Part shown: piece after piece, positions 1 to 63,209 of the stretch
How the letters are laid out: each line of letters starts with the position of its first letter
Numbering within the stretch: position 1 is the stretch's first letter
NCBI RefSeq assembly: GCF_958295425.1
Contig: NC_081136.1
Coordinates: 18,799,390-18,863,389 of the forward strand
Origin: Solea solea
Taxonomy: Eukaryota; Chordata; Actinopteri; Pleuronectiformes; Soleidae
Length of the DNA stretch: 64,000 nucleotides
Direction of reading: 5' to 3'
Program-made: the position numbers and the translations under genes
The notes under the pieces: generated by a model
The model's input: the letters and a program-made list of their open reading frames with translations, nothing else
Told to the model about the DNA's origin: nothing
Databases searched by the model: none

Positions 1-3000
1 CACTGGTAACTGAAGAATCCACTCCAACTCAACAAGTAACATCTGGTCACACTGACACCACTTTGCTAACTGAATCCACAGCTTGGACAGATACAGTGAC
101 ATCTGAGCTATCCAGCCCCACCACAGTGTCTGAATCCACCATTCAAACTGATTCAGTAACATCTCAGCCAACTGACACCTCGTCAGCAACAGCCACTCCC
201 ACTGACACTGTTATCACTGAGACTTCAAAGACAACAGTGCTATCTGAACCAACCACTGAGACTGCTACACCAACATCAGGAACTGCAGGGACAACATTGG
301 CATCTCAACCTACAATTACTACTGACTTTGTGTCTTCTGAGTCTATGGCTACTGTAACATCTGACCCCCATGAGACAATGACCACACCTGAAGAAACTAC
401 TCACACTGAAACAACATTAGTGCCAACAGAAACTACTGCAACATCTCAGACAACACTTGCCACATCTGAGACTACACTGGTAACTGAAGAATCCACTCCA
501 ACTCAACAAGTAACATCTGGTCACACTGACACCACTTTGCTAACTGAATCCACAGCTTGGACAGATACAGTGACATCTGAGCTATCCAGCCCCACCACAG
601 TGTCTGAATCCACCATTCAAACTGATTCAGTAACATCTCAGCCAACTGACACCTCGTCAGCAACAGTCACTCCCACTGACACAGTTATCACTGAGCCTTC
701 AAAGACAACAGTGCTATCTGAACCAACCACTGAGACTGCTACACCAACATCAGGAACTGCAGGGACAACATTGGCATCTCAACCTACAATTACTACTGAC
801 TTTGTGTCTTCTGAGTCTATGGCTACTGTAACATCTGACCCTCATGAGACAATGACCACACCTGAAGAAACTACTCACACTGAAACAACATTAGTGCCAA
901 CAGAAACTACTGCAACATCTCAGACAACACTTGCCACATCTGAGACTACACTGGTAACTGAAGAATCCACTCCAACTCAACAAGTAACATCTGGTCACAC
1001 TGACACCACTTTGCTAACTGAATCCACAGCTTGGACAGATACATTGACATCTGAGCTATCCAGCCCCACCACAGTGTCTGAATCCACCATTCAAACTGAT
1101 TCACTAACATCTCAGCCAACTGACACCTCGTCAGCAACAGTCACTCCCACTGACACAGTTATCACTGAGCCTTCAAAGACAACAGTGCTATCTGAACCAA
1201 CCACTGAGACTGCTACACCAACATCAGGAACTGCAGGGACAACATTGGCATCTCAACCTACAATTACTACTGACTTTGTGTCTTCTGAGTCTATGGCTAC
1301 TGTAACATCTGACCCCCATGAGACAATGACCACACCTGAAGAAACTACTCACACTGAAACAACATTAGTGCCAACAGAAACTACTGCAACATCTCAGACA
1401 ACACTTGCCACATCTGAGACTACACTGGTAACTGAAGAATCCACTCCAACTCAACAAGTAACATCTGGTCACACTGACACCACTTTGCTAACTGAATCCA
1501 CAGCTTGGACAGATACAGTGACATCTGAGCTATCCAGCCCCACCACAGTGTCTGAATCCACCATTCAAACTGATTCAGTAACATCTCAGCCAACTGACAC
1601 CTCGTCAGCAACAGCCACTCCCACTGACACTGTTATCACTGAGACTTCAAAGACAACAGTGCTATCTGAACCAACCACTGAGACTGCTACACCAACATCA
1701 GGAACTGCAGGGACAACATTGGCATCTCAACCTACAATTACTACTGACTTTGTGTCTTCTGAGTCTATGGCTACTGTAACATCTGACCCCCATGAGACAA
1801 TGACCACACCTGAAGAAACTACTCACACTGAAACAACATTAGTGCCAACAGAAACTACTGCAACATCTCAGACAACACTTGCCACATCTGAGACTACACT
1901 GGTAACTGAAGAATCCACTCCAACTCAACAAGTAACATCTGGTCACACTGACACCACTTTGCTAACTGAATCCACAGCTTGGACAGATACAGTGACATCT
2001 GAGCTATCCAGCCCCACCACAGTGTCTGAATCCACCATTCAAACTGATTCAGTAACATCTCAGCCAACTGACACCTCGTCAGCAACAGTCACTCCCACTG
2101 ACACAGTTATCACTGAGCCTTCAAAGACAACAGTGCTATCTGAACCAACCACTGAGACTGCTACACCAACATCAGGAACTGCAGGGACAACATTGGCATC
2201 TCAACCTACAATTACTACTGACTTTGTGTCTTCTGAGTCTATGGCTACTGTAACATCTGACCCTCATGAGACAATGACCACACCTGAAGAAACTACTCAC
2301 ACTGAAACAACATTAGTGCCAACAGAAACTACTGCAACATCTCAGACAACACTTGCCACATCTGAGACTACACTGGTAACTGAAGAATCCACTCCAACTC
2401 AACAAGTAACATCTGGTCACACTGACACCACTTTGCTAACTGAATCCACAGCTTGGACAGATACATTGACATCTGAGCTATCCAGCCCCACCACAGTGTC
2501 TGAATCCACCCTTCAAACTGATTCACTAACATCTCAGCCAACTGACACCTCGTCAGCAACAGTCACTCCCACTGACACAGTTATCACTGAGCCTTCAAAG
2601 ACAACAGTGCTATCTGAACCAACCACTGAGACTGCTACACCAACATCAGGAACTGCAGGGACAACATTGGCATCTCAACCTACAATTACTACTGACTTTG
2701 TGTCTTCTGAGTCTATGGCTACTGTAACATCTGACCCCCATGAGACAATGACCACACCTGAAGAAACTACTCATACTGAAACAACATTAGTGCCAACAGA
2801 AACTACTGCAACATCTCAAACAGTGCCAGCCACAACACTGGTGACTGAAGAATCCACTCCAACTCAACAATTAACATCTGGTCACACTGACACCACTTTG
2901 CTAACTGAATCCACAGCTTGGACAGATACAGTGACATCTGAGCTATCCAGCCCCACCACAGTGTCTGAATCCACCCTTCAAACTGATTCACTAACATCTC

Positions 3001-6000
3001 AGCCAACTGACACCTCGTCAGCAACAGTCACTCCCACTGACACAGTTATCACTGAGCCTTCAAAGACAACAGTGCTATCTGAACCAACCACTGAGACTGC
3101 TACACCAACATCAGGAACTACAGGGACAACATTGGCATCTCAACCTACAATTACTACTGACTTTGTGTCTTCTGAGTCTATGGCTACTGTAACATCTGAC
3201 CCTCATGAGACAATGACCACACCTGAAGAAACTACTCATACTGAAACAACATTAGTGCCAACAGAAACTACTGCAACATCTCAGACAACACTTGCCACAT
3301 CTGAGACTACACTGGTAACTGAAGAATCCACTCCAACTCAACAAGTAACATCTGGTCACACTGACACCACTTTGCTAACTGAATCCACAGCTTGGACAGA
3401 TACAGTGACATCTGAGCTATCCAGCCCCACCACAGTGTCTGAATCCACCATTCAAACTGATTCAGTAACATCTCAGCCAACTGACACCACATCAGCACCA
3501 GTCACTCCCACTGACACAGTTATCACTGAGCCTTCACAGACAACAGTGCTATCTGAACCAACCACTGAGACTGCTACACCAACATCAGGAACTGCAGGGA
3601 CAACATTGGCATCTCAACCTACAATTACTACTGACTTTGTGTCTTCTGAGTCTATGGCTACTGTAACATCTGACCCTCATGAGACAATGACCACACCTGA
3701 AGAAACTACTCACACTGAAACAACATTAGTGCCAACAGAAACTACTGCAACATCTCAGACAACACTTGCCACATCTGAGACTACACTGGTAACTGAAGAA
3801 TCCACTCCAACTCAACAAGTCACATCTGGTCACACTGACACCACTTTGCTAACTGAATCCACAGCTTGGACAGATACAGTGACATCTGAGCTATCCAGCC
3901 CCACCACAGTGTCTGAATCCACCATTCAAACTGATTCAGTAACATCTCAGCCAACTGACACCTCGTCAGCAACAGTCACTCCCACTGACACAGTTATCAC
4001 TGAGCCTTCAAAGACAACAGTGCTATCTGAACTAACCACTGAGACTGCTACACCAACATCAGGAACTGCAGGGACAACATTGGCATCTCAACCTACAATT
4101 ACTACTGACTTTGTGTCTTCTGAGTCTATGGCTACTGTAACATCTGACCCCCATGAGACAATGACCACACCTGAAGAAACTACTCATACTGAAACAACAT
4201 TAGTGCCAACAGAAACTACTGCAACATCTCAGACAACACTTGCCACATCTGAGACTACACTGGTAACTGAAGAATCCACTCCAACTCAACAAGTAACATC
4301 TGGTCACACTGACACCACTTTGCTAACTGAATCCACAGCTTGGACAGATACAGTGACATCTGAGCTATCCAGCCCCACCACAGTGTCTGAATCCACCATT
4401 CAAACTGATTCAGTAACATCTCAGCCAACTGACACCTCGTCAGCAACAGCCACTCCCACTGACACTGTTATCACTGAGACTTCAAAGACAACAGTGCTAT
4501 CTGAACCAACCACTGAGACTGCTACACCAACATCAGGAACTGCAGGGACAACATTGGCATCTCAACCTACAATTACTACTGACTTTGTGTCTTCTGAGTC
4601 TATGGCTACTGTAACATCTGACCCCCATGAGACAATGACCACACCTGAAGAAACTACTCACACTGAAACAACATTAGTGCCAACAGAAACTACTGAAACA
4701 TCTCAGACAACACTTGCCACATCTGAGACTACACTGGTAACTGAAGAATCCACTCCAACTCAACAAGTAACATCTGGTCACACTGACACCACTTTGCTAA
4801 CTGAATCCACAGCTTGGACAGATACAGTGACATCTGAGCTATCCAGCCCCACCACAGTGTCTGAATCCACCATTCAAACTGATTCAGTAACATCTCAGCC
4901 AACTGACACCTCGTCAGCAACAGTCACTCCCACTGACACAGTTATCACTGAGCCTTCAAAGACAACAGTGCTATCTGAACTAACCACTGAGACTGCTACA
5001 CCAACATCAGGAACTGCAGGGACAACATTGGCATCTCAACCTACAATAACTACTGACTTTGTGTCTTCTGAGTCTATGGCTACTGTAACATCTGACCCCC
5101 ATGAGACAATGACCACACCTGAAGAAACTACTCATACTGAAACAACATTAGTGCCAACAGAAACTACTGCAACATCTCAGACAACACTTGCCACATCTGA
5201 GACTACACTGGTAACTGAAGAATCCACTCCAACTCAACAAGTAACATCTGGTCACACTGACACCACTTTGCTAACTGAATCCACAGCTTGGACAGATACA
5301 GTGACATCTGAGCTATCCAGCCCCACCACAGTGTCTGAATCCACCATTCAAACTGATTCAGTAACATCTCAGCCAACTGACACCTCGTCAGCAACAGCCA
5401 CTCCCACTGACACTGTTATCACTGAGACTTCAAAGACAACAGTGCTATCTGAACCAACCACTGAGACTGCTACACCAACATCAGGAACTGCAGGGACAAC
5501 ATTGGCATCTCAACCTACAATTACTACTGACTTTGTGTCTTCTGAGTCTATGGCTACTGTAACATCTGACCCCCATGAGACAATGACCACACCTGAAGAA
5601 ACTACTCACACTGAAACAACATTAGTGCCAACAGAAACTACTGCAACATCTCAGACAACACTTGCCACATCTGAGACTACACTGGTAACTGAAGAATCCA
5701 CTCCAACTCAACAAGTAACATCTGGTCACACTGACACCACTTTGCTAACTGAATCCACAGCTTGGACAGATACAGTGACATCTGAGCTATCCAGCCCCAC
5801 CACAGTGTCTGAATCCACCATTCAAACTGATTCAGTAACATCTCAGCCAACTGACACCTCGTCAGCAACAGTCACTCCCACTGACACAGTTATCACTGAG
5901 CCTTCAAAGACAACAGTGCTATCTGAACCAACCACTGAGACTGCTACACCAACATCAGGAACTGCAGGGACAACATTGGCATCTCAACCTACAATTACTA

Positions 6001-9000
6001 CTGACTTTGTGTCTTCTGAGTCTATGGCTACTGTAACATCTGACCCTCATGAGACAATGACCACACCTGAAGAAACTACTCACACTGAAACAACATTAGT
6101 GCCAACAGAAACTACTGCAACATCTCAGACAACACTTGCCACATCTGAGACTACACTGGTAACTGAAGAATCCACTCCAACTCAACAAGTAACATCTGGT
6201 CACACTGACACCACTTTGCTAACTGAATCCACAGCTTGGACAGATACAGTGACATCTGAGCTATCCAGCCCCACCACAGTGTCTGAATCCACCATTCAAA
6301 CTGATTCACTAACATCTCAGCCAACTGACACCTCGTCAGCAACAGTCACTCCCACTGACACAGTTATCACTGAGCCTTCAAAGACAACAGTGCTATCTGA
6401 ACCAACCACTGAGACTGCTACACCAACATCAGGAACTGCAGGGACAACATTGGCATCTCAACCTACAATTACTACTGACTTTGTGTCTTCTGAGTCTATG
6501 GCTACGGTAACATCTGACCCCCATGAGACAATGACCACACCTGAAGAAACTACTCATACTGAAACAACATTAGTGCCAACAGAAACTACTGCAACATCTC
6601 AAACAGTGCCAGCCACAACACTGGTGACTGAAGAATCCACTCCAACTCAACAATTAACATCTGGTCACACTGACACCACTTTGCAAACTGAATCCACAGC
6701 TTGGACAGATACAGTGACATCTGAGCTATCCAGCCCCACCACAGTGTCTGAATCCACCATTCAAACTGATTCACTAACATCTCAGCCAACTGACACCTCG
6801 TCAGCAACAGTCACTCCCACTGACACAGTTATCACTGAGCCTTCAAAGACAACAGTGCTATCTGAACCAACCACTGAGACTGCTACACCAACATCAGGAA
6901 CTGCAGGGACAACATTGGCATCTCAACCTACAATTACTACTGACTTTGTGTCTTCTGAGTCTATGGCTACGGTAACATCTGACCCCCATGAGACAATGAC
7001 CACACCTGAAGAAACTACTCATACTGAAACAACATTAGTGCCAACAGAAACTACTGCAACATCTCAGACAACACTTGCCACATCTGAGACTACACTGGTA
7101 ACTGAAGAATCCACTCCAACTCAACAAGTAACATCTGGTCACACTGACACCACTTTGCTAACTGAATCCACAGCTTGGACAGATACAGTGACATCTGAGC
7201 TATCCAGCCCCACCACAGTGTCTGAATCCACCATTCAAACTGATTCAGTAACATCTCAGCCAACTGACACCTCGTCAGCAACAGTCACTCCCACTGACAC
7301 AGTTATCACTGAGCCTTCAAAGACAACAGTGCTATCTGAACCAACCACTGAGACTGCTACACCAACATCAGGAACTGCAGGGACAACATTGGCATCTCAA
7401 CCTACAATTACTACTGACTTTGTGTCTTCTGAGTCTATGGCTACTGTAACATCTGACCCCCATGAGACAATGACCACACCTGAAGAAACTACTCATACTG
7501 AAACAACATTAGTGCCAACAGAAACTACTGCAACATCTCAGACAACACTTGCCACATCTGAGATTACACTGGTAACTGAAGAATCCACTCCAACTCAACA
7601 AGTAACATCTGGTCACACTGACACCACTTTGCTAACTGAATCCACAGCTTGGACAGATACAGTGACATCTGAGCCATCCAGCCCCACCACAGTGTCTGAA
7701 TCCACCATTCAAACTGATTCAGTAACATCTCAGCCAACTGACACCTCGTCAGCAACAGCCACTCCCACTGACACAGTTATCACTGAGACTTCAAAGACAA
7801 CAGTGCTATCTGAACCAACCACTGAGACTGCTACACCAACATCAGGAACTGCAGGGACAACATTGGCATCTCAACCTACAATTACTACTGACTTTGTGTC
7901 TTCTGAGTCTATGGCTACTGTAACATCTGACCCCCATGAGACAATGACCACACCTGAAGAAACTACTCACACTGAAACAACATTAGTGCCAACAGAAACT
8001 ACTGCAACATCTCAGACAACACTTGCCACATCTGAGACTACACTGGTAACTGAAGAATCCACTCCAACTCAACAAGTAACATCTGGTCACACTGACACCA
8101 CTTTGCTAACTGAATCCACAGCTTGGACAGATACAGTGACATCTGAGCTATCCAGCCCCACCACAGTGTCTGAATCCACCATTCAAACTGATTCACTAAC
8201 ATCTCAGCCAACTGACACCTCGTCAGCAACAGTCACTCCCACTGACACAGTTATCACTGAGCCTTCAAAGACAACAGTGCTATCTGAACCAACCACTGAG
8301 ACTGCTACACCAACATCAGGAACTGCAGGGACAACATTGGCATCTCAACCTACAATTACTACTGACTTTGTGTCTTCTGAGTCTATGGCTACTGTAACAT
8401 CTGACCCCCATGAGACAATGACCACACCTGAAGAAACTACTCATACTGAAACAACATTAGTGCCAACAGAAACTACTGCAACATCTCAGACAACACTTGC
8501 CACATCTGAGACTACACTGGTAACTGAAGAATCCACTCCAACTCAACAAGTAACATCTGGTCACACTGACACCACTTTGCTAACTGAATCCACAGCTTGG
8601 ACAGATACAGTGACATCTGAGCTATCCAGCCCCACCACAGTGTCTGAATCCACCATTCAAACTGATTCAGTAACATCTCAGCCAACTGACACCTCGTCAG
8701 CAACAGCCACTCCCACTGACACAGTTATCACTGAGACTTCAAAGACAACAGTGCTATCTGAACCAACCACTGAGACTGCTACACCAACATCAGGAACTGC
8801 AGGGACAACATTGGCATCTCAACCTACAATTACTACTGACTTTGTGTCTTCTGAGTCTATGGCTACTGTAACATCTGACCCCCATGAGACAATGACCACA
8901 CCTGAAGAAACTACTCATACTGAAACAACATTAGTGCCAACAGAAACAACTGCAACATCTCAAACAGTGCCAGCCACAACACTGGTGACTGAAGAATCCA

Positions 9001-12000
9001 CTCCAACTCAACAATTAACATCTGATCACACTGGCACCACTTTGCTAACTGAACCCACAGCTTGGACAGATACAGTGACATCTGAGCTATCCAGCCCCAC
9101 CACAGTGTCTGAATCCACTATTCAAACTGATTCAGTAACATCTCGAACAACTGACACCACATCAGCAACAGCCACTCCCACTGACACAGTTATCACTGAG
9201 CCTTCAAAGACAACAGTGCTATCTGAACCAACCACTGAGACTGCTACACCAACATCAGGAACTACAGGGACAACATTGGCATCTCAACCTACAATTACTA
9301 CTGACTTTGTGTCTTCTGAGTCTATGGCTACTGTAACATCTGACCCTCATGAGACAATGACCACACCTGAAGAAACTACTCACACTGAAACAACATTAGT
9401 GCCAACAGAAACTACTGCAACATCTCAGACAACACTTGCCACATCTGAGACTACACTGGTAACTGAAGAATCCACTCCAACTCAACAAGTAACATCTGGT
9501 CACACTGACACCACTTTGCTAACTGAATCCACAGCTTGGACAGATACAGTGACATCTGAGCTATCCAGCCCCACTACAGTGTCTGAATCCACCATTCAAA
9601 CTGATTCAGTAACATCTCAGCCAACTGACACCTCGTCAGCAACAGTCACTCCCACTGACACAGTTATCACTGAGCCTTCAAAGACAACAGTGCTATCTGA
9701 ACCAACCACTGAGACTGCTACACCAACATCAGGAACTGCAGGGACAACATTGGCATCTCAACCTACAATTACTACTGACTTTGTGTCTTCTGAGTCTATG
9801 GCTACTGTAACATCTGACCCTCATGAGACAATGACCACACCTGAAGAAACTACTCACACTGAAACAACATTAGTGCCAACAGAAACTACTGCAACATCTC
9901 AGACAACACTTGCCACATCTGAGACTACACTGGTAACTGAAGAATCCACTCCAACTCAACAAGTAACATCTGGTCACACTGACACCACTTTGCTAACTGA
10001 ATCCACAGCTTGGACAGATACAGTGACATCTGAGCTATCCAGCCCCACCACAGTGTCTGAATCCACCATTCAAACTGATTCAGTAACATCTCAGCCAACT
10101 GACACCTCGTCAGCAACAGTCACTCCCACTGACACAGTTATCACTGAGCCTTCAAAGACAACAGTGCTATCTGAACCAACCACTGAGACTGCTACACCAA
10201 CATCAGGAACTGCAGGGACAACATTGGCATCTCAACCTACAATTACTACTGACTTTGTGTCTTCTGAGTCTATGGCTACTGTAACATCTGACCCCCATGA
10301 GACAATGACCACACCTGAAGAAACTACTCATACTGAAACAACATTAGTGCCAACAGAAACTACTGCAACATCTCAAACAGTGCCAGCCACAACACTGGTG
10401 ACTGAAGAATCCACTCCAACTCAACAATTAACATCTGGTCACACTGACACCACTTTGCTAACTGAATCCACAGCTTGGACAGATACAGTGACATCTGAGC
10501 TATCCAGCCCCACCACAGTGTCTGAATCCACCATTCAAACTGATTCAGTAACATCTCAGCCAACTGACACCACGTCAGCACCAGTCACTCCCACTGACAC
10601 AGTTATCACTGAGCCTTCAAAGACAACAGTGATATCTGAACCAACCACTGAGACTGCTACACCAACATCAGGAACTACAGGGACAACATTGGCATCTCAA
10701 CCTACAATTACTACTGACTTTGTGTCTTCTGAGTCTATGGCTACTGTAACATCTGACCCTCATGAGACAATGACCACACCTGAAGAAACTACTCATACTG
10801 AAACAACATTAGTGCCAACAGAAACTACTGCAACATCTCAGACAACACTTGCCACATCTGAGACTACACTGGTAACTGAAGAATCCACTCCAACTCAACA
10901 AGTAACATCTGGTCACACTGACACCACTTTGCTAACTGAATCCACAGCTTGGACAGATACAGTGACATCTGAGCTATCCAGCCCCACCACAGTGTCTGAA
11001 TCCACCATTCAAACTGATTCAGTAACATCTCAGCCAACTGACACCACATCAGCACCAGTCACTCCCACTGACACAGTTATCACTGAGCCTTCACAGACAA
11101 CAGTGCTATCTGAACCAACCACTGAGACTGCTACACCAACATCAGGAACTGCAGGGACAACATTGGCATCTCAACCTACAATTACTACTGACTTTGTGTC
11201 TTCTGAGTCTATGGCTACTGTAACATCTGACCCTCATGAGACAATGACCACACCTGAAGAAACTACTCACACTGAAACAACATTAGTGCCAACAGAAACT
11301 ACTGCAACATCTCAGACAACACTTGCCACATCTGAGACTACACTGGTAACTGAAGAATCCACTCCGACTCAACAAGTAACATCTGGTCACACTGACACCA
11401 CTTTGCTAACTGAATCCACAGCTTGGACAGATACAGTGACATCTGAGCTATCCAGCCCCACCACAGTGTCTGAATCCACCATTCAAACTGATTCAGTAAC
11501 ATCTCAGCCAACTGACACCTCGTCAGCAACAGTCACTCCCACTGACACAGTTATCACTGAGCCTTCAAAGACAACAGTGCTATCTGAACTAACCACTGAG
11601 ACTGCTACACCAACATCAGGAACTGCAGGGACAACATTGGCATCTCAACCTACAATTACTACTGACTTTGTGTCTTCTGAGTCTATGGCTACTGTAACAT
11701 CTGACCCCCATGAGACAATGACCACACCTGAAGAAACTACTCATACTGAAACAACATTAGTGCCAACAGAAACTACTGCAACATCTCAGACAACACTTGC
11801 CACATCTGAGACTACACTGGTAACTGAAGAATCCACTCCAACTCAACAAGTAACATCTGGTCACACTGACACCACTTTGCTAACTGAATCCACAGCTTGG
11901 ACAGATACAGTGACATCTGAGCTATCCAGCCCCACCACAGTGTCTGAATCCACCATTCAAACTGATTCAGTAACATCTCAGCCAACTGACACCTCGTCAG

Positions 12001-48000: not shown

Positions 48001-51000
48001 CTACAATTACTACTGACTTTGTGTCTTCTGAGTCTATGGCTACTGTAACATCTGACCCTCAAGAGACAATGACCACACCTGAAGAAACTACTCACACTGA
48101 AACAACATTAGTGCCAACAGAAACTACTGCAACATCTCAAACAGTGCCAGCCACAACACTGGTGACTGAAGAATCCACTCCAACTCAACAATTAACATCT
48201 GATCACACTGGCACCACTTTGCTAACTGAACCCACAGCTTGGACAGATACAGTGACATCTGAGCTATCCAGCCACACCACAGTGTCTGAATCCACTATTC
48301 AAACTGATTCAGTAACATCTCGAACAACTGACACCACGTCAGCACCAGTCACTGACACAGTTATCACTGAGCCTTCAAAGACAACAGTGCTATCTGAACC
48401 AACCACTGAGACTGCTACACCAACATCACGAACTGCAGGGACAACATTGGCATCTCAACCTACAATTACTACTGACTTTGTGTCTTCTGAGTCTATGGCT
48501 CCTGTAACATCTGACCCTCATGAGACAATGACCACACCTGAAGAAACTACTCATACTGAAACAACATTAGTGCCAACAGAAACTACTGCAACATCTCAGA
48601 CAACACTTGCCACATCTGAGACTACACTGGTAACTGAAGAATCCACTCCAACTCAACAAGTAACATCTGGTCACACTGACACCACTTTGCTAACTGAATC
48701 CACAGCTTGGACAGATACAGTGACATCTGAGCTATCCAGCCCCACCACAGTGTCTGAATCCACCATTCAAACTGATTCAGTAACATCTCAGCCAACTGAC
48801 ACCACGTCAGCACCAGTCACTCCCACTGACACAGTTATCCCTGAGCCTTCAAAGACAACAGTGCTATCTGAACCAACCACTGAGACTGCTACACCAACAT
48901 CAGGAACTGCAGGGACAACATTGGCATCTCAACCTACAATTACTACTGACTTTGTGTCTTCTGAGTCTATGGCTACTGTAACATCTGACCCTCATGAGAC
49001 AATGACCACACCTGAAGAAACTACTCATACTGAAACAACATTAGTGCCAACAGAAACTACTGCAACATCTCAGACAACACTTGCCACATCTGAGACTACA
49101 TTGGTAACTGAAGAATCCACTCCAACTCAACAAGTAACATCTGATCACACTGACACCACTTTGCTAACTGAATCCACAGCTTGGACAGATACAGTGACAT
49201 CTGAGCTATCCAGCCCCACCACAGTGTCTGAATCCACCATTCAAACTGATTCAGTAACATCTCAGCCAACTGACACCTCGTCAGCAACAGTCACTCCCAC
49301 TGACACAGTTATCACTGAGCCTTCAAAGACAACAGTGCTATCTGAACCAACCACTGAGACTGCTACACCAACATCAGGAACTACAGGGACAACTTTGGCA
49401 TCTCAACCTACAATTACTACTGACTTTGTGTCTTCTGAGTCTATGGCTACTGTAACATCTGACCCTCATGAGACAATGACCACACCTGAAGAAACTACTC
49501 ATACTGAAACAACATTAGTGCCAACAGAAACTACTGCAACATCTCAGACAACACTTGCCACATCTGAGACTACATTGGTAACTGAAGAATCCACTCCAAC
49601 TCAACAAGTAACATCTGATCACACTGACACCACTTTGCTAACTGAATCCACAGCTTGGACAGATACAGTGACATCTGAGCTATCCAGCCCCACCACAGTG
49701 TCTGAATCCACCATTCAAACTGATTCAGTAACATCTCAGCCAACTGACACCACGTCAGCACCAGGCACTCCCACTGACACAGTTATCACTGAGCCTTCAA
49801 AGACAACAGTGCTATCTGAACCAACCACTGAGACTGCTACACCAACATCAGGAACTGCAGGGACAACATTGGCATCTCAACCTACAATTACTACTGACTT
49901 TGTGTCTTCTGAGTCTATGGCTACTGTAACATCTGACCCTCATGAGACAATGACCACACCTGAAGAAACTACTCATACTGAAACAACATTAGTGCCAACA
50001 GAAACTACTGCAACATCTCAGACAACACTTGCCACATCTGAGACTACACTGGTAACTGAAGAATCCACTCCAACTCAACAAGTAACATCTGGTCACACTG
50101 ACACCACTTTGCTAACTGAATCCACAGCTTGGACAGATACAGTGACATCTGAGCTATCCAGCCCCACCACAGTGTCTGAATCCACCATTCAAACTGATTC
50201 AGTAACATCTCAGCCAACTGACACCTCGTCAGCAACAGTCACTCCCACTGACACAGTTATCACTGAGCCTTCAAAGACAACAGTGCTATCTGAACCAACC
50301 ACTGAGACTGCTACACCAACATCAGGAACTGCAGGGACAACATTGGCATCTCAACCTACAATTACTACTGACTTTGTGTCTTCTGAGTCTATGGCTACTG
50401 TAACATCTGACCCTCATGAGACAATGACCACACCTGAAGAAACTACTCATACTGAAACAACATTAGTGCCAACAGAAACTACTGCAACATCTCAGACAAC
50501 ACTTGCCACATCTGAGACTACACTGGTAACTGAAGAATCCACTCCAACTCAACAAGTAACATCTGGTCACACTGACACCACTTTGCTAACTGAATCCACA
50601 GCTTGGACAGATACAGTGACATCTGAGCTATCCAGCCCCACCACAGTGTCTGAATCCACCATTCAAACTGATTCAGTAACATCTCAGCCAACTGACACCA
50701 CATCAGCACCAGTCACTCCCACTGACACAGTTATCACTGAGCCTTCAAAGACAACAGTGCTATCTGAACCAACCACTGAGACTGCTACACCAACATCAGG
50801 AACTGCAGGGACAACATTGGCATCTCAACCTACAATTACTACTGACTTTGTGTCTTCTGAGTCTATGGCTACTGTAACATCTGACCCTCATGAGACAATG
50901 ACCACACCTGAAGAAACTACTCATACTGAAACAACATTAGTGCCAACAGAAACTACTGCAACATCTCAGACAACACTTGCCACATCTGAGACTACATTGG

Positions 51001-54000
51001 TAACTGAAGAATCCACTCCAACTCAACAAGTAACATCTGATCACACTGACACCACTTTGCTAACTGAATCCACAGCTTGGACAGATACAGTGACATCTGA
51101 GCTATCCAGCCCCACCACAGTGTCTGAATCCACCATTCAAACTGATTCAGTAACATCTCAGCCAACTGACACCACGTCAGCACCAGGCACTCCCACTGAC
51201 ACAGTTATCACTGAGCCTTCAAAGACAACAGTGCTATCTGAACCAACCACTGAGACTGCTACACCAACATCAGGAACTGCAGGGACAACAATGCCATCTC
51301 AACCTACAATTACTACTGACTTTGTGTCTTCTGAGTCTTTGGCTACTGTAACATCTGACCCTCATGAGACAATGACCACAGCTGAAGAAACTCCTCATAC
51401 TGAAACAACATTAGTGCCAACAGAAACTACTGCAACATCTCAAACAGTGCCAGCCACAACACTGGTGACTGAAGAATCCACTCCAACTCAACAATTAACA
51501 TCTGATCACACTGGCACCACTTTGCTAACTGAACCCACAGCTTGGACAGATACAGTGACATCTGAGCCATCTATCCTCACCACAGTGTCTGAATCCACCA
51601 TTCAAACTGATTCAGTAACATCTCAGCCAACTGACACCACGTCAGCACCAGTCACTCCCACTGACACAGTTATCACTGAGCCTTCAAAGACAACAGTGCT
51701 ATCTGAACCAACCACTGAGACTGCTACACCAACATCAGGAACTGCAGGGACAACAATGCCATCTCAACCTACAATTACTACTGACTTTGTGTCTTCTGAG
51801 TCTATGGCTACTGTAACATCTGACCCTCATGAGACAATGACCACACCTGAAGAAACTACTCATACTGAAACAACATTAGTGCCAACAGAAACTACTGCAA
51901 CATCTCAGACAACACTTGCCACATCTGAGACTACATTGGTAACTGAAAAATCCACTCCAACTCAACAAGTAACATCTGATCACACTGACACCACTTTGCT
52001 AACTGAATCCACAGCTTGGACAGATACAGTGACATCTGAGCTATCAAGCCCCACCACAGTGTCTGAATCCACCATTCAAACTGATTCAGTAACATCTCAG
52101 CAAACTGACACCACGTCAGCACCAGGCACTCCCACTGACACAGTTATCACTGAGCCTTCAAAGACAACAGTGCTATCTGAACCAAGCACTGAGACTGCAG
52201 GGACAACATTGGCATCTCAACCTACAATTACTACTGACTTTGTGTCTTCTGAGTCTATGGCTACTGTAACATCTGACCCTCATGAGACAATGACCACACC
52301 TGAAGAAACTACTCATACTGAAACAACATTAGTGCCAACAGAAACTACTGCAACATCTCAGACAACACTTGCCACATCTGAGACTACATTGGTAACTGAA
52401 GAATCCACTCCAACTCAACAAGTAACATCTGATCACACTGACACCACTTTGCTAACTGAACCCACAGCTTGGACAGATACAGTGACATCTGAGCCATCTA
52501 TCCCCACCACAGTGTCTGAATCCACCATTCAAACTGATTCAGTAACATCTCAGCCAACTGACACCTCGTCAGCAACAGCCACTCCCACTGACACAGTTAT
52601 AACTGAGCCTTCACAGACAACAGTGCTATCTGAACCAACCACTGAGACTGCTACACCAACATCAGGAACTGCAGGGACAACATTGGCATCTCAACCTACA
52701 ATTACTACTGACTTTGTGTCTTCTGAGTCTATGGCTACTGTAACATCTGACCCTCATGAGACAATGACCACACCTGAAGAAACTACTCACACTGAAACAA
52801 CATTAGTGCCAACAGAAACTACTGCAACATCTCAAACAGTGCCAGACACAACACTGGTGACTGAAGAATCCACTCCAACTCAACAATTAACATCTGATCA
52901 CACTGGCACCACTTTGCTAACTGAACCCACAGCTTGGACAGATACAGTGACATCTGAGCCATCTATCCCCACCACAGTGTCTGAATCCACCATTCAAACT
53001 GATTCAGTAACATCTCAGCCAACTGACACCACGTCAGCACCAGTCACTCCCACTGACACAGTTATCACTGAGCCTTCAAAGACAACAGTACTATCTGAAC
53101 CAACCACTGAGACTGCTACACCAACACCAGGAACTGCAGGGACAACAATGCCATCTCAACCTACAATTACTACTGACTTTGTGTCTTCTGAGTCTTTGGC
53201 TACTGTAACATCTGACCCTCATGAGACAATGACCACAGCTGAAGAAACTCCTCATACTGAAACAACATTAGTGCCAACAGAAACTACTGCAACATCTCAA
53301 ACAGTGCCAGCCACAACACTGGTGACTGAAGAATCCACTCCAACTCAACAATTAACATCTGATCACACTGGCACCACTTTGCTAACTGAACCCACAGCTT
53401 GGACAGATACAGTGACATCTGAGCCATCTATCCTCACCACAGTGTCTGAATCCACCATTCAAACTGATTCAGTAACATCTCAGCCAACTGACACCACGTC
53501 AGCACCAGTCACTCCCACTGACACAGTTATCACTGAGCCTTCAAAGACAACAGTGCTATCTGAACCAACCACTGAGACTGCTACACCAACATCAGGAACT
53601 GCAGGGACAACAATGCCATCTCAACCTACAATTACTACTGACTTTGTGTCTTCTGAGTCTATGGCTACTGTAACATCTGACCCTCATGAGACAATGACCA
53701 CACCTGAAGAAACTACTCATACTGAAACAACATTAGTGCCAACAGAAACTACTGCAACATCTCAGACAACACTTGCCACATCTGAGACTACATTGGTAAC
53801 TGAAAAATCCACTCCAACTCAACAAGTAACATCTGATCACACTGACACCACTTTGCTAACTGAATCCACAGCTTGGACAGATACAGTGACATCTGAGCTA
53901 TCAAGCCCCACCACAGTGTCTGAATCCACCATTCAAACTGATTCAGTAACATCTCAGCAAACTGACACCACGTCAGCACCAGGCACTCCCACTGACACAG

Positions 54001-57000
54001 TTATCACTGAGCCTTCAAAGACAACAGTGCTATCTGAACCAAGCACTGAGACTGCAGGGACAACATTGGCATCTCAACCTACAATTACTACTGACTTTGT
54101 GTCTTCTGAGTCTATGGCTACTGTAACATCTGACCCTCATGAGACAATGACCACACCTGAAGAAACTACTCATACTGAAACAACATTAGTGCCAACAGAA
54201 ACTACTGCAACATCTCAGACAACACTTGCCACATCTGAGACTACATTGGTAACTGAAGAATCCACTCCAACTCAACAAGTAACATCTGATCACACTGACA
54301 CCACTTTGCTAACTGAACCCACAGCTTGGACAGATACAGTGACATCTGAGCCATCTATCCCCACCACAGTGTCTGAATCCACCATTCAAACTGATTCAGT
54401 AACATCTCAGCCAACTGACACCTCGTCAGCAACAGCCACTCCCACTGACACAGTTATAACTGAGCCTTCACAGACAACAGTGCTATCTGAACCAACCACT
54501 GAGACTGCTACACCAACATCAGGAACTGCAGGGACAACATTGGCATCTCAACCTACAATTACTACTGACTTTGTGTCTTCTGAGTCTATGGCTACTGTAA
54601 CATCTGACCCTCATGAGACAATGACCACACCTGAAGAAACTACTCACACTGAAACAACATTAGTGCCAACAGAAACTACTGCAACATCTCAAACAGTGCC
54701 AGACACAACACTGGTGACTGAAGAATCCACTCCAACTCAACAATTAACATCTGATCACACTGGCACCACTTTGCTAACTGAACCCACAGCTTGGACAGAT
54801 ACAGTGACATCTGAGCCATCTATCCCCACCACAGTGTCTGAATCCACCATTCAAACTGATTCAGTAACATCTCAGCCAACTGACACCACGTCAGCACCAG
54901 TCACTCCCACTGACACAGTTATCACTGAGCCTTCAAAGACAACAGTACTATCTGAACCAACCACTGAGACTGCTACACCAACACCAGGAACTGCAGGGAC
55001 AACAATGCCATCTCAACCTACAATTACTACTGACTTTGTGTCTTCTGAGTCTATGGCTACTGTAACATCTGACCCTCATGAGACAATGACCACACCTGAA
55101 GAAACTACTCACACTGAAACAACATTAGTGCCAACAGAAACTACTGCAACATCTCAGACAACACTTGCCACATCTGAGACTACACTGGTAACTGAAGAAT
55201 CCACTCCAACTCAACAAGTAACATCTGGTCACACTGACACCACTTTGCTAACTGAATCCACAGCTTGGACAGATACAGTGACATCTGAGCTATCCAGCCC
55301 CACCACAGTGTCTGAATCCACCATTCAAACTGATTCAGTAACATCTCAGCCAACTGACACCACGTCAGCACCAGTCACTCCCACTGACACAGTTATCACT
55401 GAGCCTTCAAAGACAACAGTGATATCTGAACCAACCACTGAGACTGCTACACCAACATCAGGAACTACAGGGACAACATTGGCATCTCAACCTACAATTA
55501 CTACTGACTTTGTGTCTTCTGAGTCTATGGCTACTGTAACATCTGACCCTCATGAGACAATGACCACACCTGAAGAAACTACTCATACTGAAACAACATT
55601 AGTGCCAACAGAAACTACTGCAACATCTCAGACAACACTTGCCACATCTGAGACTACATTGGTAACTGAAGAATCCACTCCAACTCAACAAGTAACATCT
55701 GATCACACTGACACCACTTTGCTAACTGAATCCACAGCTTGGACAGATACAGTGACATCTGAGCTATCCAGCCCCACCACAGTGTCTGAATCCACCATTC
55801 AAACTGATTCAGTAACATCTCAGCCAACTGACACCACGTCAGCACCAGTCACTCCCACTGACACAGTTATCACTGAGTCTTCAAAGACAACAGTGCTATC
55901 TGAACCAACCACTGAGACTGCTACACCAACATCAGGAACTACAGGGACAACTTTGGCATCTAAACCTACAATTACTACTGACTTTGTGTCTTCTGAGTCT
56001 ATGGCTCCTGTAACATCTGACCCCCATGAGACAATGACCACACCTGAAGAAACTACTCATACTGAAACAACATTAGTGCCAACAGAAACTACTGCAACAT
56101 CTCAGACAACACTTGCCACATCTGAGACTACATTGGTAACTGAAGAATCCACTCCAACTCAACAAGTAACATCTGATCACACTGACACCACTTTGCTAAC
56201 TGAATCCACAGCTTGGACAGATACAGTGACATCTGAGCTATCCAGCCCCACCACAGTGTCTGAATCCACCATTCAAACTGATTCAGTAACATCTCAGCCA
56301 ACTGACACCACGTCAGCACCAGGCACTCCCACTGACACAGTTATCACTGAGCCTTCAAAGACAACAGTGCTATCTGAACCAACCACTGAGACTGCTACAC
56401 CAACATCAGGAACTACAGGGACAACTTTGGCATCTAAACCTACAATTACTACTGACTTTGTGTCTTCTGAGTCTATGGCTCCTGTAACATCTGACCCCCA
56501 TGAGACAATGACCACACCTGAAGAAACTACTCATACTGAAACAACATTAGTGCCAACAGAAACTACTGCAACATCTCAGACAACACTTGCCACATCTGAG
56601 ACTACATTGGTAACTGAAGAATCCACTCCAACTCAACAAGTAACATCTGATCACACTGACACCACTTTGCTAACTGAACCCACAGCTTGGACAGATACAG
56701 TGACATCTGAGCCATCTATCCCCACCACAGTGTCTGAATCCACCATTCAAACTGATTCAGTAACATCTCAGCCAACTGACACCTCGTCAGCCACAGCCAC
56801 TCCCACTGACACAGTTATAACTGAGCCTTCACAGACAACAGTGCTATCTGAACCAACCACTGAGACTGCTACACCAACATCAGGAACTGCAGGGACAACA
56901 TTGGCATCTCAACCTACAATTACTACTGACTTTGTGTCTTCTGAGTCTATGGCTACTGTAACATCTGACCCTCATGAGACAATGACCACACCTGAAGAAA

Positions 57001-60000
57001 CTACTCACACTGAAACAACATTAGTGCCAACAGAAACTACTGCAACATCTCAAACAGTGCCAGCCACTACACTGGTGACTGAAGAATCCACTCCAACTCA
57101 ACAATTAACATCTGATCACACTGGCACCACTTTGCTAACTGAACCCACAGCTTGGACAGATACAGTGACATCTGAGCCATCTATCCCCACCACAGTGTCT
57201 GAATCCACCATTCAAACTGATTCAGTAACATCTCAGCCAACTGACACCACGTCAGCACCAGTCACTCCCACTGACACAGTTATCACTGAGCCTTCAAAGA
57301 CAACAGTGCTATCTGAACCAACCACTGAGACTGCTACACCAACATCAGGAACTGCAGGGACAACAATGCCATCTCAACCTACAATTACTACTGACTTTGT
57401 GTCTTCTGAGTCTATGGCTACTGTAACATCTGACCCTCATGAGACAATGAGCACACCTGAAGAAACTACTCACACTGAAACAACATTAGTGCCAACAGAA
57501 ACTACTGCAACATCTCAGACAACACTTGCCACATCTGAGACTACACTGGTAACTGAAGAATCCACTCCAACTCAACAAGTAACATCTGGTCACACTGACA
57601 CCACTTTGCTAACTGAATTCACAGCTTGGACAGATACAGTGACATCTGAGCTATCCAGCCCCACCACAGTGTCTGAATCCACCATTCAAACTGATTCAGT
57701 AACATCTCAGCCAACTGACACCACGTCAGCACCAGTCACTCCCACTGACACAGTTATCACTGAGCCTTCAAAGACAACAGTGCTATCTGAACCAACCACT
57801 GAGACTGCTACACCAACATCAGGAACTACAGGGACAACATTGGCATCTCAACCTACAATTACTACTGACTTTGTGTCTTCTGAGTCTATGGCTACTGTAA
57901 CATCTGACCCTCATGAGACAATGACCACACCTGAAGAAACTACTCATACTGAAACAACATTAGTGCCAACAGAAACTACTGCAACATCTCAAACAGTGCC
58001 AGCCACAACACTGGTGACTGAAGAATCCACTCCAACTCAACAAGTAACATCTGGTCACACTGACACCACTTTGCTAACTGAATCCACAGCTTGGACAGAT
58101 ACAGTGACATCTGAGCTATCCAGCCCCACCACAGTGTCTGAATCCACCATTCAAACTGATTCAGTAACATCTCAGCCAACTGACACCACGTCAGCACCAG
58201 TCACTCCCACTGACACAGTTATCACTGAGCCTTCAAAGACAACAGTGCTAACTGAACCAACCACTGAGACTGCTACACCAACATCAGGAACTGCAGGGAC
58301 AACATTGCCATCTCAACCTACAATTACTACTGACTTTGTGTCTTCTGAGTCTATGTCTACTGTAACATCTGACCCCCATGAGACAATGACCACACCTGAA
58401 GAAACTACTCATACTGAAACAACATTAGTGCCAACAGAAACTACTGCAACATCTCAGACAACACTTGCCACATCTGAGACTACATTGGTAACTGAAGAAT
58501 CCACTCCAACTCAACAAGTAACATCTGATCACACTGACACCACTTTGTTAACTGAACCCACAGCTTGGACAGATACAGTGACATCTGAGCTATCCAGCCC
58601 CACCACAGTGTCTGAATCCACCATTCAAACTGATTCAGTAACATCTCAGCCAACTGACACCTCGTCAGCAACAGCCACTCCCACTGACACAGTTATCACT
58701 GAGCCATCAAAGACAACAGTGCTCTCTGAACCAACCACTGAGACTACTACACCAACATCAGGAACTACAGGGACAACATTGGCATCTCAACCTTCAATTA
58801 CTAGTGACTTTGTGTCTTCTGAGTCTATGGCTACTGTAACGTCTGACCCTCATGAGACAATGACCACACCTGAAGAAACTACTCACACTGAAACAACATT
58901 AGTGCCAACAGAAACTACTGCAACATCTCAGACAACACTTGCCACATCTGAGACTACACTGGTAACTGAAGAATCCACTCCAACTCAACAAGTAACATCT
59001 GGTCACACTGACACCACTTTGCTAACTGAATCCACAGCTTGGACAGATACAGTGACATCTGAGCTATCCAGCCCCACCACAGTGTCTGAATCCACCATTC
59101 AAACTGATTCAGTAACATCTCAGCCAACTGACACCACGTCAGCACCAGTCACTCCCACTGACACAGTTATCACTGAGCCTTCAAAGACAACAGTGCTATC
59201 TGAACCAACCACTGAGACTGCTACACCAACATCAGGAACTGCAGGGACAACATTGGCATCTCAACCTACAATTACTACTGACTTTGTGTCTTCTGAGTCT
59301 ATGGCTACTGTAACATCTGACCCCCATGAGACAATGACCACACCTGAAGAAACTACTCATACTGAAACAACATTAGTGCCAACAGAAACTACTGCAACAT
59401 CTCAGACAACACTTGCCACATCTGAGACTACTCTGGTAACTGAAGAATCCACTCCAACTCAACAAGTAACATCTGGTCACACTGACACCACTTTGCTAAC
59501 TGAACCCACAGCTTGGACAGATACAGTGACATCTGAGCCATCTATCCCCACCACAGTGTCTGAATCCACCATTCAAACTGATTCAGTAACATCTCAGCCA
59601 ACTGACACCTCGTCAGCAACAGCCACTCCCACTGACACAGTTATCACTGAGCCATCAAAGACAACAGTGCTCTCTGAACCAACCACTGAGACTACTACAC
59701 CAACATCAGGAACTACAGGGACAACATTGGCATCTCAAACTTCAATTACTAGTGACTTTGTGTCTTCTGAGTCTATGGCTACTGTAACATCTGACCCTCA
59801 TGAGACAATGACCACACCTGAAGAAACTACTCATACTGAAACAACATTAGTGCCAACAGAAACTACTGCAACATCTCAAACAGTGCCAGCCACAACACTG
59901 GTGACTGAAGAATCCACTCCAACTCAACAATTAACATCTGATCACACTGGCACCACTTTGCTAACTGAACCCACAGCTTGGACAGATACAGTGACATCTG

Positions 60001-61010
60001 AGCCATCTATCCCCACCACAGTGTCTGAATCCACCATTCAAACTGATTCAGTAACATCTCAGCCAACTGACACGTCGTCAGCAACAGTTACTCCCACTGA
60101 CACAGTTATAACTGAGCCATCAAAGACAACAGTGCTCTCTGAACCAACCACTGAGACTGCTAAACCAACATCAGGAACTACAGGGACAACATTGGCATCT
60201 CAACCATCAATTACTAGTGACTTTGTGTCTACACTTACTACTGTGTCATTATCTTCTGAGCCTTCGAAGACCACCATGGTATCTCAAAGCACCAAGCCTA
60301 GTGATATAGTAACATCTGTTCCTCACAATACAACCATTACAACTACAGCAACTGCCCAGACTGACAAACCAACATCACTGCCAATAGGAAGTCACACATC
60401 TCAATCAACCAGCCCAACCTACACATTAACATCTCCATCTTCTCTGACCACATCACCTGTCAATCTAACCACTACAACCAACGTACCACCCACTCAAACA
60501 ACTCCTAGTGCCTCATCCCTCCCACCAACAGGTTCAACAACCACAACACAAATTGTTGCATCAACAGTCCTGCCAACTTCAATCATGTCATCAACAAAGC
60601 TACAAAGTGACTCATCAACAACATTTCCAATTACAACACTCCTCTCAACAACTCCTCAAACAACCATAAAACCATCAACAACTGCAAAGCCTTTAGATTG
60701 CAAAAACGGTGGATACTACAATGGATCTGACTGCATATGTCCTCCTGGGTTCAACGAAACCCTTTGTGAAAATGTTATAGACTTTCAGCCAGGTATTGTT
60801 AATTTCAAGCAAAAACTTTCATTGCTAACTGAGTACACTTTTCTGAAAATATTTAATATCTACAGTTTCTAACTATGTCTTTTTTTTATTTCAGAAACAC
60901 TGAATCGGTCAGTTGTGGTTGACATGGTGATCCATCAGGAATACGATGAAAGATACAATGACAAACAATCACCTGAATATAAAGAGTTTGTTGGAAACTT
61001 CACCACTCAG
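1..61010 (+). CDS. Giant membrane-tethered mucin (MUC3/MUC12/MUC17-like), internal to partial 3' part
   Basis: This is a cell-surface mucin gene, open at both window edges. Exon A (1-60792, first whole codon at base 3) is read without a stop. It encodes about 20,080 residues of Ser/Thr/Pro tandem repeat, a unique PTS linker and a four-cysteine EGF-like module. A phase-1 GT-AG intron (60793-60894) joins it to exon B (60895-61010), which starts a SEA domain and ends in phase 0 at a GTAAAT donor. The order PTS repeats, EGF-like, SEA is that of transmembrane mucins MUC3/12/17. Such proteins form the glycocalyx of epithelia, and the SEA domain self-cleaves into two associated chains. No start codon is present: the first possible start by relaxed rules is a TTG inside the repeat at base 63, so the signal peptide lies upstream. 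The transmembrane and cytoplasmic exons lie downstream. Secreted gel-forming mucins are less likely because no VWD or cystine-knot sequence is seen. Orthology to one named MUC gene cannot be settled here. Confidence 0.9.
10360..13194 (+). repeat. Six-unit higher-order repeat (2,835 bp), reference copy
   Basis: Six successive unit types form a recognisable block: a VPATT unit with VISEP and SGTTG, a unit with TEPSQ, one with LSEL, one with SATATPT plus TETSK, one ordinary unit, and one with TTLSEST plus SLTSQ. Five units of 474 bp and one of 465 bp give 2,835 bp. Further copies start near 26866, 29701 and 37732, with the same marker order and the same 2,835-bp spacing to the next block. A copy near 32536 and shorter five-unit relatives near 13195 and 24505 keep the first units and differ in the rest. 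The match is by shared diagnostic variants, not by a computed alignment. Confidence 0.85.
21276..25049 (+). repeat. Tandem pair of four-unit blocks (1,887 bp each)
   Basis: A block of four units recurs with a period of 1,887 bp. It consists of a unit with SRTTDTT, an ordinary unit carrying the silent change CCCACTACAGTG, another ordinary unit, and a VPATT unit with VISEP. The SRT codon is at 21401 and again at 23288. The silent ACT change is near 21828 and 23716. The VPATT unit starts near 22618 and 24505. The second copy begins with a hybrid sequence (SGHTG) at about 23169-23180, which I read as the exchange junction. Outer limits are approximate. Confidence 0.85.
29266..44853 (+). repeat. 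Tandem duplication of a 17-unit block (8,031 bp) and its 16-unit copy (7,557 bp)
   Basis: Copy 1 spans about 29266-37296 and copy 2 about 37297-44853. Rare variants recur in the same order. TTLSEST occurs near 29393 and 32227, then 37423 and 40258 (offset 8,031). A silent GACACTACT occurs near 33100 and 41131 (offset 8,031). The TENAT variant occurs at 35673 and 43230 (offset 7,557). The SRT codon occurs at 36041 and 43598 (offset 7,557). The change of offset by exactly 474 bp shows that copy 2 has lost one unit, the SATATPT/TETSK unit found near 34462 in copy 1, or that copy 1 gained it. The duplication is therefore recent on the scale of the array. Confidence 0.88.
51285..55030 (+). repeat. 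Tandem pair of four-unit blocks (1,857 bp each) near the 3' end of the array
   Basis: Two adjacent copies share a set of rare variants at an offset of 1,857 bp. They are: SESLAT at about 51333 and 53190; a unit with TEKST, SQQTD and the 21-bp deletion, with phase points near 51931 and 53788; VPDTT near 52837 and 54699; and TPTPGT at 53124 and 54981. The length fits four units minus two 9-bp and one 21-bp deletions. The copies look almost identical, so this is among the youngest expansions in the array. Confidence 0.88.
60231..60695 (+). other. Unique Ser/Thr/Pro linker between repeat array and EGF-like module
   Basis: After DFVS the reading frame continues without tandem periodicity, but composition stays Thr/Ser/Pro-rich. 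A degenerate echo of the repeat is visible at the start (SSEPSKTTMVSQ resembles the unit segment TEPSKTTVLSEP), which suggests decayed units at the array edge. Unlike the array, it contains N-linked sequons (NTT and NLT). It probably acts as a glycosylated stalk that holds the EGF/SEA region away from the repeat domain. Confidence 0.85.
60696..60770 (+). other. EGF-like module of the mucin
   Basis: Cysteine codons at 60699, 60732, 60738 and 60765 give the pattern C-x10-C-x-C-x8-C with the typical NGG, CxCPPGF and LCE residues of the EGF fold's second half. A single EGF-like module before the SEA domain is usual in MUC3/12/17. Two N-glycosylation sequons, NGS and NET, lie inside it. These are the first cysteines in the window's coding sequence. 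Confidence 0.88.
60793..60894 (+). other. Phase-1 GT-AG intron, 102 bp
   Basis: The donor is CAG|GTATTG after the EGF-like module. The acceptor is TTTATTTCAG|AAACAC, preceded by a T-rich tract. A consensus-like branch point CTAAC sits at 60869-60873, about 22 bases before the AG. Splicing joins G|AA to form Glu, and the downstream exon then reads straight into a SEA-like sequence, which supports the junction. Unspliced, the frame runs 26 codons into the intron and stops at TAA 60870-60872, inside the branch-point motif. Confidence 0.85.
60895..61010 (+). other. Exon encoding the N-terminal part of the SEA domain
   Basis: The exon continues the mucin frame from a split Glu codon for 38 further residues and ends with TTQ at a GTAAAT donor (61011). 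The pattern VVVDMVIHQEY, then YNDKQSPEYKEF, resembles the first strand and helix of SEA domains in MUC3/12/17. Two N-glycosylation sequons (NRS and NFT) are present. The self-cleavage motif of SEA domains, usually GSVVV-like, is not in this exon and should be in the next one, outside the window. Confidence 0.85.
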
Positions 61011-61392
61011 GTAAATTAAATTAATTAAATATGTTGTATTAATTAACACACTGAACAGCTATATTAAGCAAATACACAATACAGAGGGTATGTTGTGTAG
61101 TAATCTCTTAGCTTGGTGAACAACAATGTACAAATCTGCTGTAACACTTAGTTTCAAAGTTCAACAATTATAATCTGTAGAGATAATATTCAAAGAGGTA
61201 ACATTTTTGAACACATTTACTGTACTGTATATTTGCTTTTGGTTATGAGTGATGACGTGCATTATAAGTTTCTTGGTAAAACTTTGAAAAAAGAAGACGC
61301 CGACTGTCTGGATTTTATTTTAATGCACACTCAATTCTGGTTTATGAGCGCCAGGCACTTTTTTTGGGACTAAGTTGGACTGTTTCCTAGTG

Positions 61393-61400
61393 TGTTAGGG
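61393..61400. repeat. Left target-site duplication of the hAT element
   Basis: TGTTAGGG lies directly before the left inverted repeat and matches the 8 bases after the right one. Confidence 0.93.
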
Positions 61401-61995
61401 CAGTGGTCCCCAACCCCCGGGTCAATTGGTCGCAGAGAAAGAATACATAACTTACATTATTTCCGTTTTATTTATTATCAGATTCTGAACAATGTTTTAT
61501 TTTGAAAAATTATCGGATTCTCTGACCACATCTGTCTATGACTTACTCTTGACGCATGTCAAGAGGCTTGCCTCGGTCACATGTCACGGTCAAAGAAGAA
61601 GATCAACTGCTGGTGATCGCAAAATGACGGCAGCATTAAAATTATGTTTGAGACAATAACTCTGCCGGTGTTCTGGATTAAAGACATAGCAGAATACCCT
61701 GAGATCGCCACAGTAGCACTGTAAACCCTGTTGCCATTTCAGACATCCTATCTGTATGAAGCAGGGTGAGCTGTTGACGAACTGCTGCTGTTGTGCGATG
61801 TTACGAGGATGCTGCTAATAAATTTGCATACACAGCGGATTCACGTTTATTATTATAATTCGAAAATATCAGTTTTTATGCCGGTCGTATCATTTTATTT
61901 TGTTATATTTATCCGCCACACATTAAAGGTCGGTCCGTGAAAATATTGTCTGACATTAAACCGGTCCGTGGCGCAATAAAGGTTGGGGACCACTG
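61401..61995 (+). mobile_element. Non-autonomous hAT-superfamily DNA transposon, 595 bp, complete
   Basis: The left end CAGTGGTCCCCAACC (61401-61415) and right end GGTTGGGGACCACTG (61981-61995) are perfect 15-bp inverted repeats of the CAGNGGTCCCCAACC type seen in Charlie-like hAT elements. The insertion is flanked on both sides by the identical 8-bp sequence TGTTAGGG, the target duplication length of hAT transposases. Subterminal CGGTCCGTG motifs near the right end are also typical of this group. No open frame for a transposase is present, so it was mobilised in trans. Strand is arbitrary. Confidence 0.93.
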
Positions 61996-62003
61996 TGTTA
62001 GGG
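61996..62003. repeat. Right target-site duplication of the hAT element
   Basis: TGTTAGGG lies directly after the right inverted repeat, identical to 61393-61400. Equality of the two copies suggests a fairly young insertion. Confidence 0.93.
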
Positions 62004-63136: not shown

Positions 63137-63209
63137 AAGTGTCCTCAAAAGAACCCCGCACCCTGGCTCAATGAAGACTTGATATCACTGAGACAAAGCT
63201 GATGAAAGC

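Follow-up and report, generated by a model that had tools for sequence, protein, structure and literature searches.

A predicted 76-kb repeat exon in a putative giant membrane mucin gene of Solea solea

A predicted giant exon and its splice boundaries

The window analysed here is a stretch of 64,000 nucleotides of the Solea solea genome (C3:18799390-18863389, where C3 is contig NC_081136.1 of a 642-Mb assembly with 211 contigs), which we read together with 100 kb of flanking sequence on its left and 30 kb on its right. Most of it is occupied by part of a single predicted coding exon, which would belong to the gene of a very large membrane mucin. The 194 kb read (window and flanks) contain no N. 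A sequence-only reading of the window had proposed a single coding exon longer than 60.8 kb, open from the left edge to a donor at 60793 and built on an array that continues leftward. The window indeed holds a stop-free plus-strand frame that starts at base 3 and extends over 3-60869 (20,289 codons), while the remaining two plus-strand frames have 1,123 and 2,371 stops window-wide. No frame-breaking indel was found in this frame between 3 and 60792, and the donor (CAG·GTATTG, the dot marking the exon boundary) is present at 60793, as claimed.

The flanking sequence bears out the leftward continuation, since the open frame extends to window position -15279. The best acceptor in this stretch scores 12.99 bits, is in phase 1, and reads ...ttctttttcacag up to the boundary and TATACATCC after it, which places the first exon base at -15251. 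The window numbering passes through 0, so that this start corresponds to 15,252 exon bases on the left of the window. Because the open frame runs across these bases up to a strong acceptor, the predicted giant exon measures 76,044 bp (C3:18784138-18860181, phase 1-1), and none of its 25,347 whole codons is a stop; the length first proposed was thus probably an understatement. The part of the exon within the window (1..60792, plus strand) is followed by a predicted 102-bp GT-AG intron in phase 1 (60793..60894, plus strand), whose acceptor ends at 60894. The next exon (60895..61010, plus strand) enters in phase 1 and leaves in phase 0, with a donor GTAAAT at 61011, and would encode the first part of a SEA-like domain. 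All splice-site scores given in bits come from rough matrices.

Structure of the tandem array

The tandem array covers positions 1..60230 of the window (plus strand), where Tandem Repeats Finder reports a Thr/Ser/Pro-rich unit of 474 bp, i.e., 158 residues, in 127.7 copies with 97% match. In translation, it is followed by a non-array Thr/Ser/Pro-rich tail of the giant exon (60231..60695, plus strand) and by an EGF-like segment with four Cys (DCKNGGYYNGSDCICPPGFNETLCENVIDFQP; 60696..60792, plus strand), which closes the exon. The tail includes, at 60532, a phase-1 acceptor-like site that could yield an array-free isoform.

Cutting the window part of the array gave 127 full units (95 of 474, 27 of 465, 3 of 468, and 2 of 453 bp), all with lengths that are multiples of three and with a common start frame; 72 of them are distinct. 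The whole exon gave 158 full units (122 of 474, 31 of 465, 3 of 468, and 2 of 453 bp), of which 92 are distinct at the DNA level and 71 at the protein level. All 158 lengths are divisible by three, and the three indel classes correspond to 3, 2, and 7 codons. With a length divisible by three and no stop in the coding frame, a unit can be gained or lost without any shift of the frame. When one unit was shuffled with preservation of its dinucleotides, a plus-strand frame was open in 9 of 20,000 trials. On these trials and the stop counts in the other plus-strand frames, we rejected a frame open by chance.

The units at the edges of the array are more divergent than those within it. Identity to the consensus is 98.78% in the middle and 97.25% in the last 20 units, on the right, whereas the left edge is only slightly more divergent (97.88% in the first 5 units and 98.6% in the first 20). 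Furthermore, a 163-bp stretch within 60231-61010 matches the left edge of the array at 68.7%. More divergent edge units and a diverged stretch common to both edges are the pattern of real arrays.

Three further features of the array were observed. CpG is strongly depleted over 1-60230 (138 observed vs 2,726 expected), which suggests methylation and homogenisation. The 465-bp units form a loose higher-order repeat, as 20 of the 26 spacings between them measure 3 to 6 units. The repeat also carries, at the unit starts (1-60300 in the window), a donor-like site, CTG·GT(A/G)ACTG, which scores above the donor at 60793 and makes up 141 of the 142 strong internal donors weighed below; 112 of such sites lie within the window.

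Composition of the product and signs of selection

The predicted product of the giant exon consists of 56% Pro/Thr/Ser over its 25,347 residues. It has 12,374 Thr and Ser, 5 Cys, and a strongly unbalanced charge (3,506 acidic vs 194 basic residues). This composition is maintained along the consensus unit, in which every 20-residue window has at least 45% Pro/Thr/Ser. The repeat is expected to be disordered.

We used the differences between units to search for traces of selection on the coding frame. The units of the whole exon differ by 109 distinct single-base variants, the last eight codons being excluded because the 465-bp unit type changes there. Synonymous variants are more numerous than expected (40 vs 30.8, P 0.034), new stops are absent (0 vs 2.9 expected, P 0.05), and losses of Thr or Ser are rarer than expected (16 vs 27.4, P 0.006). 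The two wrong frames show 6 stops each among the variants, against 5.4 and 3.9 expected. The deficit of Thr/Ser losses is also found with the window units alone (11 vs 22.2 expected, P 0.003).

Downstream exons and the gene model

Eight exons were predicted downstream of the giant exon, chained in phase down to a TGA: 60895-61010, 65397-65461, 67246-67367, 68809-68868, 69285-69459, 70228-70389, 70932-71026, and 71750-72042. The pairing of 99 acceptors with 139 donors had resulted in 45 candidate exons, of which six were chosen by phase and by the sense of their sequence; for the last of the six, the stop codon replaced the listed donor as its end. One further exon was picked among three candidates, the exon at 60895-61010 was added from separate splice scoring, and a single chain was built. 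We read the eight exons as encoding a SEA-like segment, a second EGF-like segment (a Cys-rich stretch read in the spliced model), a transmembrane segment, and a tail.

The transmembrane segment lies in exon 70228-70389, where a 19-residue stretch exceeds all others of the C-terminus in hydrophobicity (Kyte-Doolittle mean of 2.21, the next best elsewhere being 1.71). This stretch is followed by basic residues and by a tail ending in TGA, so that hydropathy points to a transmembrane helix with a cytoplasmic tail. SEA domains have an autocleavage motif, GSVVV, which we did not find in the SEA-like domain, where exon C3:18866635-18866756 (67246-67367) reads FVINVSIRVIHDVIL. Because NVSIRV stands there in place of GSVVV, this domain may not self-cleave. 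Uncleaved SEA domains are known, and a missing motif does not exclude a SEA mucin.

Upstream of the giant exon, the best of four candidates for a signal-peptide exon is found at C3:18773412-18773475 (-25977 to -25914) and has the sequence MAFLSYVLILSALLIYLCPAQ. We regard its role as exon 1 as possible to probable. With it, the gene model has 10 predicted exons and the predicted protein has about 25,730 residues (21 from exon 1 and 25,710 from the giant and later exons).

Searches for similarity in the C-terminal region gave little. Pfam has no match for exon 60895-61010 by itself, and its scan of the 399-residue C-terminus did not list either EGF-like segment, nor the hEGF match obtained with a shorter piece (see below). 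Among solved structures, the piece with the EGF and SEA segments has weak matches only, to EGF-containing and other chains (E 0.088 or worse), and the whole C-terminus also has weak matches only, with a trefoil factor (E 0.81 or worse). The Rfam scan of 60001-64000 at gathering thresholds and the tRNA scan of the window were both empty. We rejected a gel-forming mucin: no VWD or cystine-knot domain appears in the C-terminal scan, the N-terminal side being outside that scan, and a membrane segment is present.

A probable giant membrane mucin and its alternatives

Taken together, the open frame, the splice boundaries, and the composition of the product make it highly probable that the window lies inside the gene of a very large single-pass membrane mucin with the layout of MUC3, MUC12, and MUC17 and with an exon of 76,044 bp. 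In these mucins, EGF-like segments flank the SEA domain on both sides. The gene would start with the possible signal-peptide exon, followed by one giant exon and then by small exons. The giant exon would consist of a short N-terminal piece, 158 full repeats, partial edge copies, the unique Ser/Thr tail, and the 4-Cys EGF-like segment, and the small exons would encode the SEA-like domain, the second Cys-rich EGF-like segment, the transmembrane helix, and the cytoplasmic tail. The 12,374 Ser and Thr could provide dense O-glycosylation sites, giving an extended acidic brush tethered to the epithelium. Unequal exchange and gene conversion presumably spread and homogenised the in-frame unit.

Several results weigh against this reading. 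The donor at 60793 is weak (5.42 bits), and 142 donor sites inside the exon equal or exceed it. The Pfam match of SEA on the spliced C-terminus (E 0.014) reaches 16 bits, under the cut-off of 26.4, and the match of hEGF on a 99-residue piece including the 60696..60792 segment (E 0.007) is below the curated cut-off. In protein searches, the tail gave no match at E <=10 among 8,000 candidates scored, and the piece with the EGF and SEA segments gave no candidate, in a database that is perhaps poor in animal proteins. The control on the reverse strand gave one signal-exon candidate whose donor is better and a second of higher hydropathy; because candidates of similar rank occur there, the signal exon is not beyond chance. 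Finally, the signs of selection are less clear when the window units are taken alone: synonymous variants are 33 of 91 vs 25.4 expected (P 0.05) or 32 of 89 vs 24.9 (P 0.06), the absence of new stops has P 0.09, and the Fisher contrast between Thr/Ser codons and the rest has P 0.07. The mutation model behind these tests is simple and the repeat copies are not independent. We read these tests as showing real but modest selection on the units, with their Thr/Ser content kept.

The array could be coding and yet owe its length to duplicated or mis-joined repeats, in which case the true exon would be much shorter. We consider this rather unlikely. Mucin repeats are difficult to assemble (PMC12831279, PMC9578598; here and below, the statements taken from cited papers concern the available parts of their text), and near-identical blocks of 5-7 kb exist in the array: the segment 28689-34393 (5,705 bp) has a copy at a distance of 8,031 bp with a single mismatch, and two runs of 10 units may differ at only 1 place. 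Yet no exact repeat in the part of the array inside the window exceeds 3,570 bp, and with gaps counted over the whole exon, any two runs of 21 units (~10 kb) have at least 65 differences and any two of 32 units at least 141. The ungapped count for 10 kb in the window part is 120 differences, which overstates the divergence relative to the gapped count. Because 21-unit runs differ at 65 places or more, accurate reads of at least 10 kb can place the units, whereas noisy or shorter reads cannot. Moreover, 92 of the 158 units are distinct and there is no frame error over 76 kb. Without the most suspect duplication, of 8 kb, the exon would still measure ~68 kb.

The other alternatives accept the array and dispute its use. 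The open stretch might be spliced within the repeats. Chicken Muc13 is organised in this way, with a separate exon for every repeat, and in the zebrafish homologue the Pro/Thr/Ser (PTS) region also spreads over several exons (PMC1552070). This precedent makes internal splicing worth testing, and the 142 donor-like sites, together with the weak in-frame site pairs 60-2,000 bp apart in the window part (41 of 91 at donors of at least 4.5 and acceptors of at least 6.0 bits; 96 of 1,962 at 3 and 4 bits), speak in its favour. On the same splice scores it nevertheless appears unlikely, and we give it little credit: every acceptor of the window's array stays below 8 bits, to compare with 13.0 for the giant exon and 11.4 for the next exon, the donors are all in phase 0, and the consensus unit, open throughout and uniformly rich in Pro/Thr/Ser, has no intron-like stretch. 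The sole acceptor of at least 8 bits inside the exon is that at 60532, in the unique tail. With 8.77 bits and the same phase 1 as the predicted acceptor of the giant exon, it could be joined in frame by exon 1 (phase 1), so that the main product would be a short mucin and the giant exon would be rarely or never included. This is a shade less credible still, as the giant exon's own predicted acceptor is far stronger and an unused array would lose both its frame and its Thr/Ser content, which show signs of upkeep. A decaying pseudogene, or a satellite open by chance, would fit the only modest significance of the codon-level tests, but it is very hard to reconcile with 25,347 codons free of stops, with indels that are all multiples of three, and with a strong acceptor upstream and eight open, in-phase exons downstream; we regard it as highly improbable. 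On the splice and phase evidence, we rejected a non-coding satellite.

If the giant membrane mucin is encoded as predicted, its exon might be the longest protein-coding exon recognised in animals, giving a membrane mucin of ~25,700 residues from an mRNA with ~77 kb of coding sequence that stays unspliced within the repeats despite more than 100 stronger donor-like sites. This further claim is tentative, and in our judgement slightly more doubtful than probable. If true, it would mean that splice sites in homogenised repeats are actively ignored. Transcription as predicted would make the locus a test case for splicing, transcription, and secretion on giant templates and for the upkeep of a frame in a homogenising array, and the upper size of coding exons in animals would pass that of the longest human MUC12 allele. 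Its occurrence in a fish would mean that giant mucin exons are no mammalian peculiarity.

Comparison with known giant exons and mucins

Larger proteins are known, among them titin and the polyketide synthases of haptophytes. Titin resembles the predicted mucin in being a giant animal protein with a large exon, but it is unrelated in sequence and function, and has a longer protein and a shorter exon. MUC16 shares with the predicted mucin a very long Ser/Thr-rich membrane protein, from which it differs by having multiple SEA domains (PMC1552070) instead of a single SEA-like segment. The sequence-only reading had measured the exon against very large exons of 17-22 kb, a yardstick that is out of date: in one human assembly, the MUC3B exon has 39,267 bp and the MUC12 exon 32,428 bp, while the single PTS exon of MUC3A has 15,873 bp (PMC9578598). 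According to a 2026 preprint (PMC13345508), MUC12 alleles are predicted to code for as many as 23,080 residues, and in some humans the MUC12 exon would be, as far as its authors know, the largest coding exon. Since 23,080 codons amount to 69,240 bases including all other MUC12 exons, the exon described here is longer (76,044 bp vs at most ~69 kb in MUC12 and 39,267 bp in MUC3B). Coding exons well over 60 kb are thus already predicted in humans, and the one predicted here is roughly a tenth longer. We found no animal coding exon of 76 kb in the literature searched, which mostly leaves out subscription journals and gives no proof of absence. The observation is real and extreme, while giant mucin exons as such are already known.

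The closest likenesses concern layout. Human MUC12 is also a membrane mucin with one huge repeat exon, a central variable number tandem repeat (VNTR), but its whole coding sequence is at most ~69 kb and its length polymorphism is documented (PMC13345508). MUC3A and MUC3B have a single PTS exon followed by SEA, transmembrane helix, and tail; they differ by a perfect repeat of 17 residues instead of a 158-residue unit and by 12 exons instead of the 10 predicted here (PMC9578598). Chicken and zebrafish Muc13 share the layout of PTS, EGF, SEA, and transmembrane segments and differ in that their PTS region is divided among several exons, in chicken with one exon for each repeat (PMC1552070). Another fish mucin (PMC11765562) is unrelated and was set aside.

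Surrounding DNA

The intron that follows 61010 contains, outside the coding gene, a hAT-like insertion at 61401..61995 (strand unassigned), within 61393-62003; its terminal inverted repeats measure 15 bp and its target duplication, TGTTAGGG, 8 bp. The same intron includes a decayed LINE-like remnant at 62633-63911. One of its pieces has an endonuclease match below the cut-off (E 0.035), and the remaining two pieces have no sensible match. In intron 1, open frames on the minus strand at about -20690 to -18684 look, by eye, like those of a reverse transcriptase. Further left, between about -97000 and -63000, a repeated family of minus-strand open frames (LFSVLVIFSGVPAHV...) occurs in several places. 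By eye, the open frames of the 130 kb of flank appear rich in transposable elements.

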